The position numbers and the translations under genes were made by a program. From NCBI GenBank assembly GCA_017626395.1, contig JAGAIU010000028.1, forward strand, positions 1-64,000: a stretch of DNA of 64,000 nucleotides. Direction: 5' to 3'. The notes beneath the pieces were generated by a model that was given only the letters and a program-made list of their open reading frames with translations, did not search any database and was not told the DNA's origin. The stretch comes from Clostridia bacterium. Lineage in GTDB: Bacteria; Bacillota; Clostridia; TANB77; CAG-465. Positions 18,384 through 42,972 of this stretch are shown here, in pieces. How positions within the stretch are numbered: the stretch's first letter is position 1; each line of letters starts with the position of its first letter.

Positions 18384-18441
18384 TCTAAACATAAAAATAA
18401 ATAAGTGAAAAATCTAAACAAAATAAACTAAACAAAATACA

Positions 18442-18484
18442 AAAGCAAGTGATTATTGATAATTACTTGCTTTTATGCTATATT
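18442..18484 (+). promoter_or_regulatory. Composite terminator-promoter element 1
   Basis: A 14-bp stem (18442-18455 with 18460-18473, one G-U) with loop TTGA is followed by TTTT and terminates the acyl-CoA ligase unit. The -35 TTGATA (18456-18461) begins in the loop, a 17-bp spacer follows, and the -10 TATATT (18479-18484) with upstream TGC lies just beyond the U-tract. It should drive the SDR-ASCH-ubiquitin operon. Confidence 0.75.
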
Positions 18485-18536
18485 AAAATTGTAAATATTA
18501 GAAAATAATATAAATAAAAATATGGAGAGTGATTAT

Positions 18537-19361
18537 ATGAAAACAGTAGTTATAACAGGTAGTGCAAGAGGATTAGGCTTTGAAATGGCCAAAGTATTTA
18601 GAAGAAATAACGTAAATGTAGTTATTAGTGATTTAAATGAAGAAAAATTAGCAAATGCTAAAAAAGAACTTGAAGAAATTGAGTCAGAAGCACAAGTAAA
18701 ATATTGTGTATGCAATGTTACTAGTTCAGAGAATATACAAAATTTAATAGATTTTGCTAAAAAAGAGTTTGAAGTTATAGATATATGGATTAATAATGCT
18801 GGTGTTAACCAACCAGAAAAACCAATTTGGGAATTAGAAGAAAGCGAAATAGATTTAGTTTTAGATGTAGATTTAAAAGGTGCTATAATAGGTTCTAAAC
18901 TTGCTATGGAAGAAATGTCTAAAAACAAAAAAGGTGCTATATACAATATAGAAGGATATGGCAGTAACGATGCTATGATGCTTGGACTTTCTATGTATGG
19001 AACAAGTAAAAGAGCTATAACATACTTTACACAAGCACTAGCTAAAGAAAGTGAAGAAAGACAAACAGGAGTTATTGTTGGAAGATTAAGCCCTGGAATA
19101 ATGATAACAGATTTTATTGTTACTGCTCTTGGAGATAAAGATAAAATACAATTATCAGATAAAACTAAAAAGGTATATAACATATTAGGAGATTATCCAG
19201 ACGTTGTAGCTAAATTTTTAGTTGAAGGAATGTTAAAGAATGAAAAGAATAATGCTAAAATTGAATGGTTAACAAATAGAAAAGCTGCTTGGAGATTTAT
19301 GACTGCAGGGTTTAATAAAAGAGATTTCTTTGGAGATGGAACTAAATTATTAAATAAATAA
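18537..19361 (+). CDS. Short-chain dehydrogenase/reductase (NYC1-like)
   Basis: A 274-aa Rossmann-fold oxidoreductase with TGSARGLGF (cofactor loop), NNAGVN, and catalytic YGTSK preceded by an EGYGSNDAM segment. The serine position of the classical triad is not obvious. The overall pattern resembles the NYC1/NOL-like branch of SDRs, whose bacterial members have unknown substrates. The start at 18537 fits GGAGAG; an ATG at 18522 lies in front of that ribosome site. It is the first gene of an operon with ASCH and ubiquitin genes (15- and 24-nt gaps). Confidence 0.82.
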   Translation: MKTVVITGSARGLGFEMAKVFRRNNVNVVISDLNEEKLANAKKELEEIESEAQVKYCVCNVTSSENIQNLIDFAKKEFEVIDIWINNAGVNQPEKPIWELEESEIDLVLDVDLKGAIIGSKLAMEEMSKNKKGAIYNIEGYGSNDAMMLGLSMYGTSKRAITYFTQALAKESEERQTGVIVGRLSPGIMITDFIVTALGDKDKIQLSDKTKKVYNILGDYPDVVAKFLVEGMLKNEKNNAKIEWLTNRKAAWRFMTAGFNKRDFFGDGTKLLNK

Positions 19362-19376
19362 GAATGGAGGCTTAAA

Positions 19377-19715
19377 ATGTTACACAAAATGAATTTGCAA
19401 CCAGGTCCATATAAAATGATTGAACGTGGAACTAAAACAATTGAAATGAGATTGTATGATGAAAAAAGACAAAAAATAAATATAGGAGATGTTATAGAAT
19501 TTACTAATGATGCTACAAAAGAAACTTTAAATGCTAAAGTTCTAAATTTACATAGATATAAAACTTTTGGTGAGCTATATTTAAAATTTGAAAAAGAAAA
19601 ATTAGGATATGAAAGCGATGATATAGCTAAACCAGAAGATATGGAACAATATTATAGTAAAGAAAAAATAGAAGAATTTGGTGTTGTAGGTATTGAAATA
19701 GAAGTAATTAGATAA
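19377..19715 (+). CDS. ASCH-domain protein
   Basis: A 112-aa protein with the beta-barrel ASCH pattern: MNLQPGPYKMIERGTKTIEMR at the N-terminus (an ERGTKTIE(M)R core), IGDVIEF and a C-terminal GVVGIEIEV strand. ASCH domains are related to PUA and bind RNA or process modified nucleosides (YqfB amidohydrolase). The specific role is unknown. It is the middle gene of the SDR-ASCH-ubiquitin operon, with GGAGG before the start. Confidence 0.8.
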   Translation: MLHKMNLQPGPYKMIERGTKTIEMRLYDEKRQKINIGDVIEFTNDATKETLNAKVLNLHRYKTFGELYLKFEKEKLGYESDDIAKPEDMEQYYSKEKIEEFGVVGIEIEVIR

Positions 19716-19739
19716 AATAAATATAATAGGAGTGATTAT

Positions 19740-20624
19740 ATGAAAAAAAGATTATTTTTAATAACTACAATTTTATGTATGTTACTATGTATGTCAACAT
19801 CAACTGTTTATGGAATGCAAATATTTGTTAAAACACTTGATGGAGAAACTATTACACTAGAGGTAGAACCTAACGATTCGATAGATGCAATAAGAGCTAA
19901 GGTGCAAGAAAAAGAAAGTATTCCGGCTTACAAACAAAAGTTAATATTTGCCGGGAAAATATTAGAAGATGGAAAAACGTTATCAGATTATAACATACAA
20001 AAAGAGTCAACTTTACATATGGTAATTACACTAGAAAATAGTGCAGTAATAGACACTACTAATGCAGTAGTTAAAGTAGATGGTGATGAAATTTCAGAAA
20101 TTGAATTTAGAAAAGACACAATAAAGGAATTCGAAATAACTGCAAATGAAGGATATGTACTAACATCTGTTACAGTAAATGATGTAGAAAAAATATCTGA
20201 AATAAAAGATAATATACTTCTAGTTGAAAAAGAAGAAGCAGTCGCTACTAATATAAAAGTTATTGCAGAATCAATTGAATACCATATAGATATTTCATTA
20301 ATTAAAGATCAAGAAACTTTAGAAAGTAATACAGAAACAATATTATATGGCAATGAATTTAGAAAAAATATTGTAGTAGATGAAAAATATGTAATAGATA
20401 AGTATGTATATAATGGAGAAGATATAACAGAACAAGTAGAAAATCATCAAGTTGTATTGAATGAATTTAAAGAAGAGGGAAATACTTTAGAAATATATGT
20501 TAAAGATAATCTAAATATAAATCCAGAAACAGGAGATACATTTGTTATGTATTTAAGTATATGTCTTGTAAGCATTTTAGGTATAGTATCATTATATAAA
20601 TTAAGAAAATTTAGAAAAAATTAA
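19740..20624 (+). CDS. Secreted, NPETG-anchored ubiquitin-domain protein
   Basis: A 294-aa precursor. Residues 1-25 form a signal peptide with a VYG-Met cleavage site, so the mature protein would begin exactly at the Met of ubiquitin. Residues 26-101 match eukaryotic ubiquitin at 53 of 76 positions (hand alignment), including [14 protein letters not shown] and [14 protein letters not shown]. The Ile44 patch (L8, I44, H68, V70) and K6, K29, K33, K48 and K63 are kept; K11 is Glu, K27 Arg, R72 Thr, R74 Glu and the Gly-Gly tail Asn-Ser, so it should not be conjugated. Two beta-rich segments follow, then NPETG (261-265), a membrane helix and a basic tail, a sortase sorting signal. It is cotranscribed with SDR and ASCH genes. 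The role is unknown; mimicry of host ubiquitin is an inference. Confidence 0.93.
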
Positions 20625-20633
20625 TATAAATTT

Positions 20634-20679
20634 AAAAGGAAGTAATTATATTGCTAATTACTTCCTTTTATGCTAATAT
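20634..20679 (+). promoter_or_regulatory. Composite terminator-promoter element 2
   Basis: A perfect 15-bp stem (20634-20648 with 20655-20669) ends the ubiquitin operon. The -35-like TTGCTA (20651-20656) lies across the loop, followed by a 17-bp spacer and TAATAT (20674-20679) with TGC upstream, serving the gene at 20718. Confidence 0.65.
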
Positions 20680-20717
20680 ACAATTAAGAATTAATATAAT
20701 TCTTAGAGGTGAAATAT

Positions 20718-21551
20718 ATGGAAAAAATAGGAGAATTACTTTGTATATTACAGACTGAAATGCCTGAAGCTACCGCATGGGGATGGTTTCATTTAATGTG
20801 GGTTGCATTAATTGTTATATCACTAATCGTATTGTACAAATTGAAAGGTAAATATAGTGAGAAGCAATTAAAAGCAGTTTTAGGAACATACGGAATAGTC
20901 GCATTAATTTTAGAGGTAACAAAACAATTAATCTGGACTTTTGATTATAATTCAGTAACTAATACATTTACAGCAGATTATCAGTGGTATGCATTTCCAT
21001 TTCAATTATGTACTACTCCAATATTTGTAAGTATTCTGTGTTTGTTTATGAAAAGAACAAAACTTAGACTATCATTGTTATCATACATGGCTTTTGTTAC
21101 GATTTTGGGAAGTTTTATGACGGTAATTATACCAGATGACTGTCTTGTAGAAACGATATTAATAAATGTTCATACTATGTGGTTACATTGCGGAAGTTTA
21201 GTAGTTTCAATTTATTTATTAATGTCTGGTGCAGTAGAAATAAACAAACAGAATTTCAAAAATGCAATTGGAATTTTTATAGTATTTGTAATATTAGCAC
21301 AAATACTAAATGTTGGAGTATATAATAGCGGAATACTTGGTGATGAAACATTTAATATGTTTTACATTAGTCCATATTTTATTAGCTCATTACCTGTATT
21401 TGATACAATACAACAAGCTGTTCCATATCCAGTATATTTAGCACTATATGTTATAGCATTGTCTTTAGGAGCATGCATTGTATATATGATTGCTAAAGTT
21501 ATAAGTAGTATTATAAATAAAAAAGAAAAAGTTAAAATAGAGGTAAAATAA
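20718..21551 (+). CDS. Polytopic membrane protein, YwaF/TMEM164-like
   Basis: A 277-aa integral membrane protein with about seven hydrophobic helices. The segment WYAFPFQLCTTPIF and the later NVHTMWLHCGS, each with conserved-looking polar residues inside helices, resemble the YwaF (TIGR02206)/TMEM164 family. TMEM164 is an acyltransferase in eukaryotes; the bacterial function is unknown. The start at 20718 follows GAGGTG. It begins a unit with two GNAT genes. Confidence 0.65.
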   Translation: MEKIGELLCILQTEMPEATAWGWFHLMWVALIVISLIVLYKLKGKYSEKQLKAVLGTYGIVALILEVTKQLIWTFDYNSVTNTFTADYQWYAFPFQLCTTPIFVSILCLFMKRTKLRLSLLSYMAFVTILGSFMTVIIPDDCLVETILINVHTMWLHCGSLVVSIYLLMSGAVEINKQNFKNAIGIFIVFVILAQILNVGVYNSGILGDETFNMFYISPYFISSLPVFDTIQQAVPYPVYLALYVIALSLGACIVYMIAKVISSIINKKEKVKIEVK

Positions 21552-21552
21552 A

Positions 21553-22071
21553 ATGGACAACTATATATGTAAAATAGCTAATTTAGATGAAATAAATGAA
21601 AAATGGGATTATGAAATAGAAAAACATCCAGATGATAGCAGATGGAAAGTATGGAAAGAACAATTTGTAACATCAGTAAAAAGGGGAAATAGAATTTGCT
21701 ATTATGGGATACTAAATGGTAAGATAATATCCGAAGCTACTGCTATTATAAATAAAGATGATGTAGATAAAAACAATCAAGATTTAATAAATGAAACTGC
21801 AGCATATCTTGTTGCTTTTAGAACAATAAAAGAATATCAATCACAAGGATATTTTTCTAAGTTATATAATTTTATGGAAAATGATTTAAAAAATAAAGGA
21901 TATAAAAAGTTAATACTTGGTGTAGAACCTTGTGAAGAAAAGAATAAAAAAATATACTTTAAATGGGGATATACAAATTTAGTTAAAATAGATGTTGAAG
22001 AATATCCAATTAAAGAGGGAGAAACAGAGCCAGAAATAATAGAAGTAGAATATTATTATAAAGAAATATAA
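21553..22071 (+). CDS. GNAT N-acetyltransferase
   Basis: A 172-aa GNAT-fold enzyme. YQSQGYFSKLYNFMEND is the acetyl-CoA-binding segment, and KKIYFKWGYTN is the usual final motif. The substrate is unknown. It starts 1 nt after the upstream membrane-protein stop, so it is probably coupled. Confidence 0.8.
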   Translation: MDNYICKIANLDEINEKWDYEIEKHPDDSRWKVWKEQFVTSVKRGNRICYYGILNGKIISEATAIINKDDVDKNNQDLINETAAYLVAFRTIKEYQSQGYFSKLYNFMENDLKNKGYKKLILGVEPCEEKNKKIYFKWGYTNLVKIDVEEYPIKEGETEPEIIEVEYYYKEI

Positions 22072-22081
22072 GGAGAAATTA

Positions 22082-22528
22082 ATGGAAATTAGAAAAATAG
22101 AATATGATAAAGAAAGATATTTGAGTTTGTTATTAGAAGCAGATCCAGAAAAAGAAGCGATAGATAAATATTTAGATAAAGGTGAAATGTATATAATTGA
22201 AGAAGATGGTGATGCAGTATGTGAAGTTGTAGTAACAGAAGTAGATAACGATACATGTGAACTAAAAAATATTGCAACTTTACCTAAAGTTCGTGGAAAA
22301 GGATATGCAAGTAAAATAATACAATATATTTTTGAAGTATATAAAAATAAATATAAAAGAATGATAGTTGGTACAACTGAAAATATGATACCATTTTACG
22401 TTTTAAATGGTTTTACTAAGTATCATCATACAGTTAAAAACTTCTTTATAGATAACTACAATGAAGAAATCTGGGATGGAGATTTACACTGTATAGATAT
22501 GTATTACTATTCAAAGGAATTTAAATAA
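22082..22528 (+). CDS. GNAT N-acetyltransferase
   Basis: A 148-aa acetyltransferase with CELKNIATLPKVRGKGYASK (the RGKGYA loop) and FYVLNGFTKYHHT. The pattern matches clostridial GNATs of unknown substrate. AAGGAG is 6 nt before the start. Adjacent to, but clearly different from, the GNAT at 21553; probably same operon. Confidence 0.82.
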   Translation: MEIRKIEYDKERYLSLLLEADPEKEAIDKYLDKGEMYIIEEDGDAVCEVVVTEVDNDTCELKNIATLPKVRGKGYASKIIQYIFEVYKNKYKRMIVGTTENMIPFYVLNGFTKYHHTVKNFFIDNYNEEIWDGDLHCIDMYYYSKEFK

Positions 22529-22531
22529 AAC

Positions 22532-38714: not shown

Positions 38715-38739
38715 ATTTAGTAAATAAGAGGGAAAAAGC

Positions 38740-41700
38740 ATGAGAGATAAAATATGGATATTAAGGTTAATCTGTATATTATGTGTGTTTTTTACGGTTA
38801 GTAAATATATTAAAGCGGCAAACGAGGAAATATTACCAGATGATGCAGCAAAAGTTTCTTCTGCCGTGGTAATTCAGACTAAAACTGGAACAGGACCTTT
38901 TGATAATGACGATAGCCCGGGAAATGATTCTAGTGAAGATAATAATATAGTAAGATCTTTTGATCAAGTAACGTGGACAGTTGAAAATACATTTATATTA
39001 AAAGATAGTAGTACAGAAGGAAAATATAGTGGTGGATATGTTAATGTGGAAGGATTTCTTCCAGAAAATTTAAAAGATACTGTGATTTGGGATACTGAAT
39101 CGATGGCATGGGCTCAAGATATAGTGCTATCTGAAGATGGACTAACATTTACAGCTAAATATTATATGACAGAGAAAGAAATAACAGTACCAGGTAAACA
39201 ATCTTTAGTTTTTGTGGCTAAAGTGTTAGGAGCGGGAAATGGTACTAGTATAGTTCCAGAAGTAAAAGTATGGTTAAACGGAAATGCTGATGGAGATAAA
39301 GTAAGTGTTTCAGGGATTAGTGAAACAATAGTCAGTTCAGCACCTAAATATAATATTAAATTAACTAGAAACACATATTGTTCAAAAAGAGTTACGGTAG
39401 ATTATGATTTGGAAGAAATAACAGGAAGAATGTATGGATATTCATTTGTATTACAATTGTATAATACAGATGCTACAAAAGGAATGAAAGGATTAGAATT
39501 CCCTAAAGGAGATATTACTTTTGATTTAGATCTAAGTTTTACTAGAAGTGATATTGAAACTGGTCAAACAGTAAATATAACAGATGATTGCACACCATTA
39601 TTATGGAACTATAAAGTTAATATGAGCGGAAAAAATAATGGAGTTATTGCAGATAGAGTAATGCAATGGTTAAATTCTGATGAATCATTTAATGTTAGAT
39701 GGGCACCATATGGTATGGCTAGAACTGATAGAAATAATTCTATATATGATTCTGGTAGCATTTCAATGACACAAAATGGAAGTAAAATATCGGTTACTGT
39801 TTCAGATTACAAATTTGATGGTATTTTTCCTAAATATAATGGGGAATATAATGCAAACACAATAATTTATCCCGAAAATATAGGATGTTTTAGTGCAGGC
39901 TATTTCCAAATTTTAGTGCCAGAAAATGAAGCAAGTCTTGATGATAATAAAACATATTATTTAACAGTAAAAGATACTAATATTAATGCAACGTCAATTA
40001 CAGATGCACAAGTGAATACTCAAATTATAAATAACGATGATAGCATTTCTATGACTCACGTACGTTTAGTAAAAGGTACATATGGTAAATTCGTAGACCT
40101 TTCAGCACAATCAGGTTATCCAATACTTGGCCTTACTAATAGAGGTAGAGGTGGAGATACAGTAATGACACCTGGAAATGTATTCAAAACTAATTTGGTT
40201 GCATCTGTAAGTAATTCTGCGGATGAACCATATTATATTTATAGTGCAAATCAAATGTATAAATTTGATGGTGAAGGATTTGAACCAAATACAGATAAGA
40301 TAGTATTCAGTGCAACTTCATCTTTAACATTTAATGCCTACTATTTAACTAAAAAAGATGGAACTAACTGGGCTTCTCAAGATGAAATGAATAATACAGT
40401 GGATTTAGCGGATTTTAATATTTACAAAAATAAATCAGATATACCAGACGGTCATATTTGTGTTGGATTATTCTTCGAATCAAATAATGATGGTGTATGG
40501 ATTCCTACTTGGAGTACAATTTCTGTGCAAATGAAGGTTAAAGAAACTGCACCGGTAAATCAGACTTATGGTATGACAATGGCTACAATGTTATGGGATG
40601 AAGCAAATAAGTTGGATAGAAGTATATACAATATAGAAAATAATATAGATTTTTCAACATATCCACAATATGTATATTATGCCGGTCAAATGCCATATGT
40701 AAAAACTGAGTATAATGAAGATGGAAGTATTGTATCAGGTACACATAGAGGAAGTTATACATATGGTAATACTATATATGTGGTTGGCGCAAATCAAACA
40801 GTTGAAATAGAAGCAGTAGACACTGATGGAAATATTAAAACTAACTATGATTTAGGAAAAAATGAATATGATGTAACTTATAAGATTTCTCCTATACTTT
40901 CATCAGACAATGATAATGTTAAAATTGGGGATATAACTGTAATACTTACAGATACATTACCACAAGGATTAACATATGTATCTGGAAGCTCAAATTATGG
41001 TGATCCAGAAATAACAGAAAATGATGATGGTTCAGCTACTTTAGTTTGGAAAATATATAATTGTGTTGTAGAGGAAGAAATTACTCCGTTAACATTTAAT
41101 GCACATATAGATGAAGAATCACCAAACGGGAAACAATTTACAAACAAAGTAGTAATTAGTACAGATAAGTTAGGAAATATTAAAGAAGTCAATAGAACAG
41201 ATACAACAACTATACAAGTAATAAACTTATCTTCACACAGATTATATAAAATAAGTAATACACCAACTATTGAAAAAGACGGAACAATAACATATGTATT
41301 ATCGTATAAAAATAATACAGACTATAAAATATCAGATTTCCAATTATTAGATATATTACCATATAATGGAGATGATAGAGGTAGTTCTTTTGAAGGTACA
41401 TATATACTAGAAAAACTTGTTGTAACTCAAGAAAAAACAGATGGAACTATAATTTCAAATGAGAATTTGAAAATACTTTATACATCAGATGAAAGTGTAA
41501 GAGGTACTGTAACAAGTAAAGACACTAATCTGGGTGAAGGGTGGAATACGATTACATCAACTGAAATAAATGATGATGCAACAGCTATTGCAGTAAGAGG
41601 AGAGATAGCAGAACAAGTTAAAGTTACAGTAGAATTTGTACTTAAAACTTCTGGAAATGGAGAGTCAGATAAGTATATAAATAATGCAACTGCACAAGTA

Positions 41701-42972
41701 TATCAAGAAACAGAAGAAATAACTACAAGTAGTGCTGTATCGCAAGTTATAAAAAGAATGATAGAAGGTATAGTATGGTATGACGAAGATGGAGATGGAT
41801 TAAAAGATGATACAGAACCTTTGGCAGAAAATATCGAAGTAATATTAACAAATGACGTTAGTGAACAAGTAAAAAATATAAATGGAGATATTATTTCTAG
41901 TGTAAGAACGGATGCTAATGGATATTATTCATTTAATAGTTTATCTAAACAAAATTACTATGTTACTATAACTATGCCAGATGAAAAATATATACTTACT
42001 ACAAAAGAGGTAGGTAGCAACGATGAAATAAATAGCAAATTTAATATAGATACTAATCAAACAGATTTAATTACTAAATTAAATAGTTCAGATTTACCTG
42101 ATCTTATAGAATCAAATGTAAATGCAGGTCTTGTAAAGAAACCTACAAGTGTAGTTACTAAATATCTAGATTTGAATACAAATAAAGAAATTTATACTAC
42201 AAGCACTCAAAATGGTAGAACAGATGATAGTTATACTACAGTAAATGAACTAGATAATATAAATGCTGCTAATGATAATAAATATGAATTTGTAAAAGTT
42301 GAAGGTCAAACATCAGGAACTATGACAGAAGAAGCAATATATGTTACATATTACTATCAAAAAATTGAAACTAGTGTACTGGTAAAACACGTAGATGAAA
42401 ATGGTAATAATCTTGTCCCAGAAGAAGCAATAAAGGGTAGAATAGACGATGAATACGAAACACAAGAGCAAGAATTTGAGGATTATGAAATATTAACAAT
42501 ACCAGATAATGCAACTGGTAAAATGGAAAAAGGACAAATTACTGTTACGTATGTATATAGTTTAGTAAAAGGGAAGATAACTGTAACTAAAGTAGATAAA
42601 AATGATGAAACTAAATTAATAGAAGGTGCAACATTCAGACTAGAAAAACTAGATGAAGATGGAAATGTAGATTCAACATTTACAGCTCAAGAAAAAACAA
42701 CAGATTCTACTGGTATAATCGAATATAGTGAACTGCTAGTTGGAAAATATAAAGTAACAGAAATAAAAGCACCAGAAGGTTATGAATTATCTAATGAAGA
42801 AATTATAGTAGAAATTACTAAAAATAATAGAAATTTAAATCTTTTGGCTAAAAATAGATTAAAACTTATATTACCAGAAACTGGTGGAATAAATACAACC
42901 ATATATTTTGTATTTATAGGAATTGTGATTATGATATTAACAGCTAAAACAGTTCTTAATAAAAATAATTAA
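38740..42972 (+). CDS. Large LPETG-anchored surface protein
   Basis: A 1410-aa cell-wall protein. It has a signal peptide (about 1-27), a large N-terminal beta-rich region of unknown fold (30-690), a DUF11/isopeptide-type repeat with DITVILTDTLPQGLTYVSG (about 700-820), a second one with FQLLDILPYNGDD (about 834-990), an SdrD/Cna-B-like calcium domain starting EGIVWYDEDGDGLKDD (about 1007-1120), two MucBP-like domains (about 1131-1205 and 1209-1275), a SpaA/Cna-B domain starting ITVTKVDKND (about 1278-1370), then LPETG (1378-1382), a membrane helix and a short basic tail. Such proteins are adhesins; MucBP domains suggest mucin binding. It is monocistronic. No sortase is in the window. Confidence 0.92.
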   Translation: MRDKIWILRLICILCVFFTVSKYIKAANEEILPDDAAKVSSAVVIQTKTGTGPFDNDDSPGNDSSEDNNIVRSFDQVTWTVENTFILKDSSTEGKYSGGYVNVEGFLPENLKDTVIWDTESMAWAQDIVLSEDGLTFTAKYYMTEKEITVPGKQSLVFVAKVLGAGNGTSIVPEVKVWLNGNADGDKVSVSGISETIVSSAPKYNIKLTRNTYCSKRVTVDYDLEEITGRMYGYSFVLQLYNTDATKGMKGLEFPKGDITFDLDLSFTRSDIETGQTVNITDDCTPLLWNYKVNMSGKNNGVIADRVMQWLNSDESFNVRWAPYGMARTDRNNSIYDSGSISMTQNGSKISVTVSDYKFDGIFPKYNGEYNANTIIYPENIGCFSAGYFQILVPENEASLDDNKTYYLTVKDTNINATSITDAQVNTQIINNDDSISMTHVRLVKGTYGKFVDLSAQSGYPILGLTNRGRGGDTVMTPGNVFKTNLVASVSNSADEPYYIYSANQMYKFDGEGFEPNTDKIVFSATSSLTFNAYYLTKKDGTNWASQDEMNNTVDLADFNIYKNKSDIPDGHICVGLFFESNNDGVWIPTWSTISVQMKVKETAPVNQTYGMTMATMLWDEANKLDRSIYNIENNIDFSTYPQYVYYAGQMPYVKTEYNEDGSIVSGTHRGSYTYGNTIYVVGANQTVEIEAVDTDGNIKTNYDLGKNEYDVTYKISPILSSDNDNVKIGDITVILTDTLPQGLTYVSGSSNYGDPEITENDDGSATLVWKIYNCVVEEEITPLTFNAHIDEESPNGKQFTNKVVISTDKLGNIKEVNRTDTTTIQVINLSSHRLYKISNTPTIEKDGTITYVLSYKNNTDYKISDFQLLDILPYNGDDRGSSFEGTYILEKLVVTQEKTDGTIISNENLKILYTSDESVRGTVTSKDTNLGEGWNTITSTEINDDATAIAVRGEIAEQVKVTVEFVLKTSGNGESDKYINNATAQVYQETEEITTSSAVSQVIKRMIEGIVWYDEDGDGLKDDTEPLAENIEVILTNDVSEQVKNINGDIISSVRTDANGYYSFNSLSKQNYYVTITMPDEKYILTTKEVGSNDEINSKFNIDTNQTDLITKLNSSDLPDLIESNVNAGLVKKPTSVVTKYLDLNTNKEIYTTSTQNGRTDDSYTTVNELDNINAANDNKYEFVKVEGQTSGTMTEEAIYVTYYYQKIETSVLVKHVDENGNNLVPEEAIKGRIDDEYETQEQEFEDYEILTIPDNATGKMEKGQITVTYVYSLVKGKITVTKVDKNDETKLIEGATFRLEKLDEDGNVDSTFTAQEKTTDSTGIIEYSELLVGKYKVTEIKAPEGYELSNEEIIVEITKNNRNLNLLAKNRLKLILPETGGINTTIYFVFIGIVIMILTAKTVLNKNN

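Follow-up and report, generated by a model that had tools for sequence, protein, structure and literature searches.

A predicted wall-anchored ubiquitin of Entamoeba type in a gut clostridium, with secreted relatives scattered among bacteria

Introduction

Secreted bacterial ubiquitin has so far been described essentially from one species. BfUbb of Bacteroides fragilis was described as unique (PMC3352274); it is secreted with a signal peptide that is cut exactly at Met1 (PMC5705921), inhibits other strains of its own species (PMC5705921, PMC3352274), and has an entomopoxvirus ubiquitin as its nearest reported relative (PMC3352274, PMC5705921). A passage in PMC5705921 also describes an effector of Globodera rostochiensis in which a signal peptide is fused to ubiquitin and which acts outside the producing cell; this effector is eukaryotic, and according to the same passage its 12-aa C-terminal extension is cleaved off in the plant.

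Here we analyze a ubiquitin gene in a 64-kb stretch of clostridial DNA (hereafter, the window). Like BfUbb, its product is bacterial, predicted to be secreted and cleaved at Met1, highly identical to eukaryotic ubiquitin, and altered at the C-terminus. Unlike BfUbb, a free protein of 76 aa, the window's ubiquitin domain is of Entamoeba type and forms the front part of a protein that bears a sortase signal. By HMMER scores, the consensus of its bacterial clade cannot be told apart from Entamoeba histolytica ubiquitin (PDB 4gsw), but the latter is an ordinary intracellular modifier, whereas the window domain is predicted to be secreted and lacks the terminal GG. The precursor also resembles Gram-positive LPXTG proteins in its signal peptide, tip domain, beta-rich stalk, xPxTG motif, membrane helix, and basic tail, differing from them in that its tip is a eukaryotic-type ubiquitin and its motif is NPETG rather than LPETG.

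In this gut clostridial branch, the type of eukaryotic donor can be named from the unusual sequence, which would make it a concrete instance of gene transfer from amoeba to bacterium. The case also raises the question of what a bacterium gains by wearing ubiquitin on its outside, where conjugation is impossible.

Results and discussion

Gene and precursor

The ubiquitin gene and its surroundings comprise the following features:

18385..22530, plus strand: variable block of SDR, ASCH, ubiquitin, TMEM164/YwaF, and two GNAT genes, lacking in sister species, where the AMP-binding and Rrf2 genes lie next to each other (ends approximate)
19728..19732, plus strand: Shine-Dalgarno-like AGGAG, seen in the sequence 7 nt upstream of the ORF
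19740..20624, plus strand: gene for the ubiquitin protein, predicted to be secreted and anchored (294 aa, one uninterrupted ORF)
19740..19814, plus strand: predicted signal peptide of 25 aa, ending in VYG right before ubiquitin Met1 (sequence and a simple rule)
19815..20033, plus strand: Entamoeba-type ubiquitin domain, residues 26-98 (Pfam, alignment, AlphaFold2, Foldseek, tree)
20034..20519, plus strand: beta-rich stalk without a recognised family
20520..20534, plus strand: NPETG sorting motif, residues 261-265
20535..20621, plus strand: membrane helix and basic tail LRKFRKN (sequence, AlphaFold2)
20633..20670, plus strand: inverted repeat with a 16-pair stem, likely the transcription end (scan; called there on the minus strand, with the plus-strand stem ending in TTTT too)

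The Pfam ubiquitin family PF00240 matches residues 28-98 with 93 bits against a cut-off of 25.4 bits (E=9.6e-27; profile positions 1-71 of 72). Alignment with human ubiquitin gives 53 identical residues of 76, exactly the count made by hand in the initial annotation, which had also described the signal peptide, sorting motif, membrane helix, and basic tail now located in the ORF and the predicted cleavage (VYG/M) that leaves Met1 at the N-terminus. The changes from human ubiquitin fall at positions 9-32 (T9D, K11E, S20N, T22S, E24D, N25A, V26I, K27R, I30V, D32E), 35-54 (G35S, P38A, D39Y, Q40K, R42K, Q49I, R54K), and 69-76 (L69M, L71I, R72T, R74E, G75N, G76S). The same alignment agrees with the earlier reading that L8, I44, K48, K63, H68, and V70 are retained, as is G47, and that R72, R74, G75, and G76 are lost; the human LRLRGG (71-76) is ITLENS in the window domain and runs on into the stalk. 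Judged from these residues, conjugation of the window's ubiquitin is excluded by the loss of GG together with the C-terminal fusion to the stalk.

AlphaFold2 placed pLDDT at 95-98 over the ubiquitin domain and 83-96 over the membrane helix, with most of the stalk below 55 and hence left unmodelled, and Foldseek aligned the domain with ubiquitin crystal structures, mostly at about 0.7-1.3 Å. The modelled domain is a eukaryotic-type ubiquitin with the ubiquitin beta-grasp fold, a high-confidence prediction of the kind that the initial annotation had named as support. The stalk, the roughly 160 aa between the ubiquitin domain and the sorting motif, matched no sibling protein and gave no convincing hit in Pfam or the PDB. 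The precursor is predicted to be exported and anchored to the wall by sortase; the missing GG, the stalk fusion, and 10 sortase matches over the cut-off in the window's genome all agree with the original description of a eukaryote-derived, non-conjugable protein carrying a predicted sortase anchor. A second sortase-signal protein lies in the window at 38728-42969 (plus strand), where an open frame of up to 1414 codons encodes a long surface-type sequence with LPETG, a membrane helix, and a tail.

Genomic context

Eukaryotic contamination or chimeric assembly could produce such a gene, the genome being a 78-contig draft; moreover, four related loci in metagenome-assembled genomes (L064, L066, L073, and L077) encode ubiquitin without a signal peptide and could be eukaryotic contamination. 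For the window, however, an artefact is exceedingly improbable. The gene is a single ORF with a bacterial signal peptide, a Shine-Dalgarno site, and a sorting signal, and it lies mid-contig, at 20 kb in a contig of 114 kb whose first 64 kb form the window, in a region of uniform composition with 24-29% GC throughout. Its flanks match sister species that show the empty site, and relatives occur in isolates and on a plasmid of Ruminococcus albus 7. Contamination or chimerism, raised as a concern in the initial annotation, is effectively ruled out by the uniform composition, the contig context, and the empty site.

In G022 and G025, which are sister species, only about 120 and 630 bp, respectively, separate the AMP-binding gene (upstream) from its neighbor, the Rrf2 gene (downstream), while in the window's genome a block of about 4.1 kb lies between them. 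This block is variable cargo, not necessarily acquired in one insertion: none of the 27 other genomes of the genus has its YwaF gene, and a homologue of its SDR gene is present elsewhere in several of them. The ubiquitin gene itself occurs in 1 of 36 family genomes and in 5 of 391 and 2 of 398 genomes sampled across the class and the phylum, respectively, each count taking in the window's own genome. Such patchy occurrence, counted directly, indicates horizontal transfer.

Sequence type and origin

The initial annotation compared the domain with human ubiquitin and missed that it is closer to that of Entamoeba: Foldseek gives 81% identity to 4gsw and 70-73% to human ubiquitin, and 58 of 72 residues are identical to Entamoeba ubiquitin, with 14 changes over residues 1-72. 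Gut clostridial ubiquitins have eight common differences from the human protein (N20, S22, D24, A25, I26, E32, E52, and K54), of which the window copy carries seven (position 52 is D) and 14 relatives carry all eight. Counts of these residues are bimodal, with 60 sequences holding 0-3 and 25 holding 5-8. The window copy is one of 25 gut-bacterial ubiquitins that together give a consensus sequence indistinguishable from E. histolytica ubiquitin. This identity, read from HMMER scores and a Foldseek percentage rather than from a printed alignment, is indicated by a consensus score of 154.4 bits against 4gsw, equal to the self-score, compared with 141.6-141.8 bits for human ubiquitin. Each single substitution tested in the consensus lowered the score, and when human and clade residues were combined in all 256 ways, two independent 4gsw scores could be reproduced only by the sequence that carries the full set of eight clade residues. 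One relative (L013) reaches 97% identity with 4gsw and 86% with human ubiquitin (1ubq) by direct alignment.

Trees, based on 72-73 columns, placed Entamoeba ubiquitin on a zero-length branch inside a 26-row clade with the window copy (support 98/89). The grouping with eukaryotic ubiquitin that the initial annotation had named as support is thus seen for Entamoeba, within a gut-bacterial clade, and not for human. When the tree was constrained to a single bacterial clade apart from human and Entamoeba, the log-likelihood was 33.5 worse (AU p 0.06), which falls short of rejecting one common origin of the secreted bacterial ubiquitins and lends it no support.

Since the clade consensus carries all eight differences as Entamoeba does, the ultimate donor was probably an Entamoeba-type amoeba, and because ubiquitin is universal in eukaryotes, the direction would be from amoeba to bacterium. 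The immediate donor of the window gene was probably another gut bacterium. A direct recent transfer from a mammalian host was also considered and is ruled out by the amoebal signature. By title, the Entamoeba-type relatives come mostly from ruminants (goats, sheep, deer, and water buffalo), a link that is suggestive only, as ruminant Clostridia are common in the collection anyway. One locus (L015 7033-8171, the L128/L132 pair) carries two adjacent secreted ubiquitins, one of Entamoeba type and one ordinary, which suggests two separate acquisitions.

The placement of the window copy in a clade with Entamoeba rather than human ubiquitin also means that mimicry aimed at an animal host, the view taken in the initial annotation, is not the interpretation that suggests itself first. 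In such mimicry, the domain would engage deubiquitinases, E3 ligases, receptors, or antibodies of the host. The retention of L8, I44, G47, H68, and V70 is consistent with such mimicry, and activities of extracellular ubiquitin in mammals are reported (PMC10892293). Yet the sequence type is amoebal rather than mammalian, drift in the window copy (R42K, Q49I, R72T) takes it further from the mammalian binding surface, and the wider family includes free-living bacteria, so that we consider this role quite improbable.

Secreted ubiquitins in other bacteria

A locus scan with one genome per species returned 174 related places. We kept 80 of them, in addition to five viral contigs. Because the search was seeded with exact peptides of the window protein, the resulting 87 ubiquitin ORFs are biased to close relatives; in 79 of them, the window's included, the predicted signal peptidase site lies exactly at Met1, as called by a simple rule (a hydrophobic segment together with acceptable residues at -3 and -1) rather than by a trained predictor. 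Extra loci found with the Pfam profile instead of peptide patterns show the same design by eye. The hosts include Clostridia, Paenibacillaceae, Pseudomonadota, Verrucomicrobiota, Bacteroidota, Prochlorococcus, Planctomycetota, Acidobacteriota, Nitrospirota, Lindowiibacteriota, and Actinomycetota. About ten bacterial phyla are represented, with isolates among the hosts, most relatives being metagenome-assembled genomes. Of the initial annotation's picture of a transferred and recast gene, the transfer stands, but the gene is not an isolated case, and several of these relatives have sortase-type anchors as well.

The tails that follow ubiquitin are mutually unrelated. Besides xPxTG tails (the window copy, L004, L005, L006, L018, and L030), they include InlB-type repeats, SLH (L035), T9SS (L023), and IPTL/PEP-CTERM signals, and autotransporter barrels in L020, L029, L045, and L057 (PF03797 behind PF00240), autotransporters in which the ubiquitin domain is the passenger. 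These sequences appear to form a scattered, wide family of fixed design, with a signal peptide, ubiquitin at the mature N-terminus, and an interchangeable anchor. Our searches of the open-access literature turned up no description of this wider family or of an anchored or PEP-CTERM ubiquitin, which may have been described elsewhere.

Two plasmid matches were found, one of them a true secreted ubiquitin: the gene at L187 3923-4663 on plasmid pRUMAL01 of R. albus 7, located near an integrase gene and a gene for a PI-specific phospholipase C. No phage in the phage collection carried the ubiquitin gene. Neighbor comparison identified no gene partner conserved across the family, the largest neighbor clusters being frame-shifted or antisense readings of the ubiquitin gene. 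An uncharacterised gene family without a Pfam match, present at L022 9243-10247 and at six further loci (L016, L020, L021, L042, L048, and L075), is separated from secreted ubiquitin genes by 4-73 bp; most of these loci are proteobacterial.

A rival explanation is interbacterial antagonism, in which the displayed domain would inhibit competing bacteria on contact by binding a target on their surface or in their envelope, much as secreted BfUbb inhibits other strains of its species. BfUbb is the only secreted bacterial ubiquitin found with a tested function, is likewise cut at Met1, and likewise has last residues unlike those of human ubiquitin (PMC5705921, PMC3352274); surface display and patchy carriage are, in addition, typical of competition genes. 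However, BfUbb is free, whereas the window protein extends beyond the domain into a stalk and has a predicted wall anchor. The neighborhood offers no conserved gene that could confer immunity, and the broad range of host bacteria does not suggest one bacterial target. Antagonism is a possible, if doubtful, explanation.

Selection and possible role

Purifying selection on the ubiquitin domain is strong. In two clostridial pairs, dN/dS was 0.08 in the ubiquitin part and 0.67 in the tail (L004/L005) and 0.04 and 0.62, respectively (L006/L018), and most other estimable pairs showed the same direction, the exception being the short-tailed pair L010/L012. Since the domain is constrained while the tails diverge, the domain is likely to be the functional part. 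Conservation is spread broadly over it: in a permutation test that omitted positions 1-6 and 57-64, the source of the locus-search peptides, conservation of the Ile44 patch did not significantly exceed that of the remaining exposed sites (p 0.17 for Entamoeba-type sequences, 0.64 for the others), and selection specific to this patch was accordingly not found. The pattern speaks neither for nor against a classical ubiquitin-binding partner.

Domain-wide conservation without a focus on the Ile44 patch, like the fusion of ubiquitin to many unrelated tails and anchors, could point to a neutral scaffold, a small, very stable, fast-folding domain that caps surface proteins at the N-terminus without binding any particular partner. 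We regard this as unlikely, given that the purifying selection takes in many exposed residues and that the clostridial copies have retained almost the whole donor sequence even as their tails diverged.

The window protein is instead most likely a displayed, non-conjugable ubiquitin ligand. We infer that the signal peptide exports the precursor, that signal peptidase cuts directly before ubiquitin Met1, and that sortase cuts NPETG and links the protein to the wall, which would leave the ubiquitin domain outermost, at the tip of a fast-evolving stalk. Gram-positive surface proteins often bear a binding domain at this N-terminal outer tip. The ancestral gene would have been captured from an Entamoeba-like gut amoeba and then have moved among gut Clostridia and some Bacteroidales by horizontal transfer. 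Since the domain is nearly constant while stalk and anchor change freely, the domain's surface may be the working part, serving as a ligand for ubiquitin-recognising proteins.

The binding partner and the benefit to the bacterium are more speculative. The amoebal origin and the niche favor protist partners, and our first choice would be the ubiquitin-binding proteins of amoebae or other protists that graze these bacteria. This combined reading, of an amoeba-derived ligand that meets proteins of grazing protists, is plausible while still somewhat short of probable. Amoebal ubiquitin-binding proteins are expected to be cytosolic, the Ile44 patch shows no excess conservation, and there is no family-wide partner gene. 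Furthermore, since ordinary-type secreted ubiquitins occur in marine and soil bacteria, a role specific to Entamoeba would account for only part of the family. A broader version, in which about ten phyla display captured protist ubiquitins and the gut Clostridia use the type of co-resident Entamoeba-like amoebae, to interact with grazing protists, is conceivable but on balance doubtful; if true, ubiquitin display would be a shared and so far undescribed strategy. In two of the relatives (L072 and L084), the secreted ubiquitin is free and stops right at LRLRGG, so that the conjugable C-terminus is kept.
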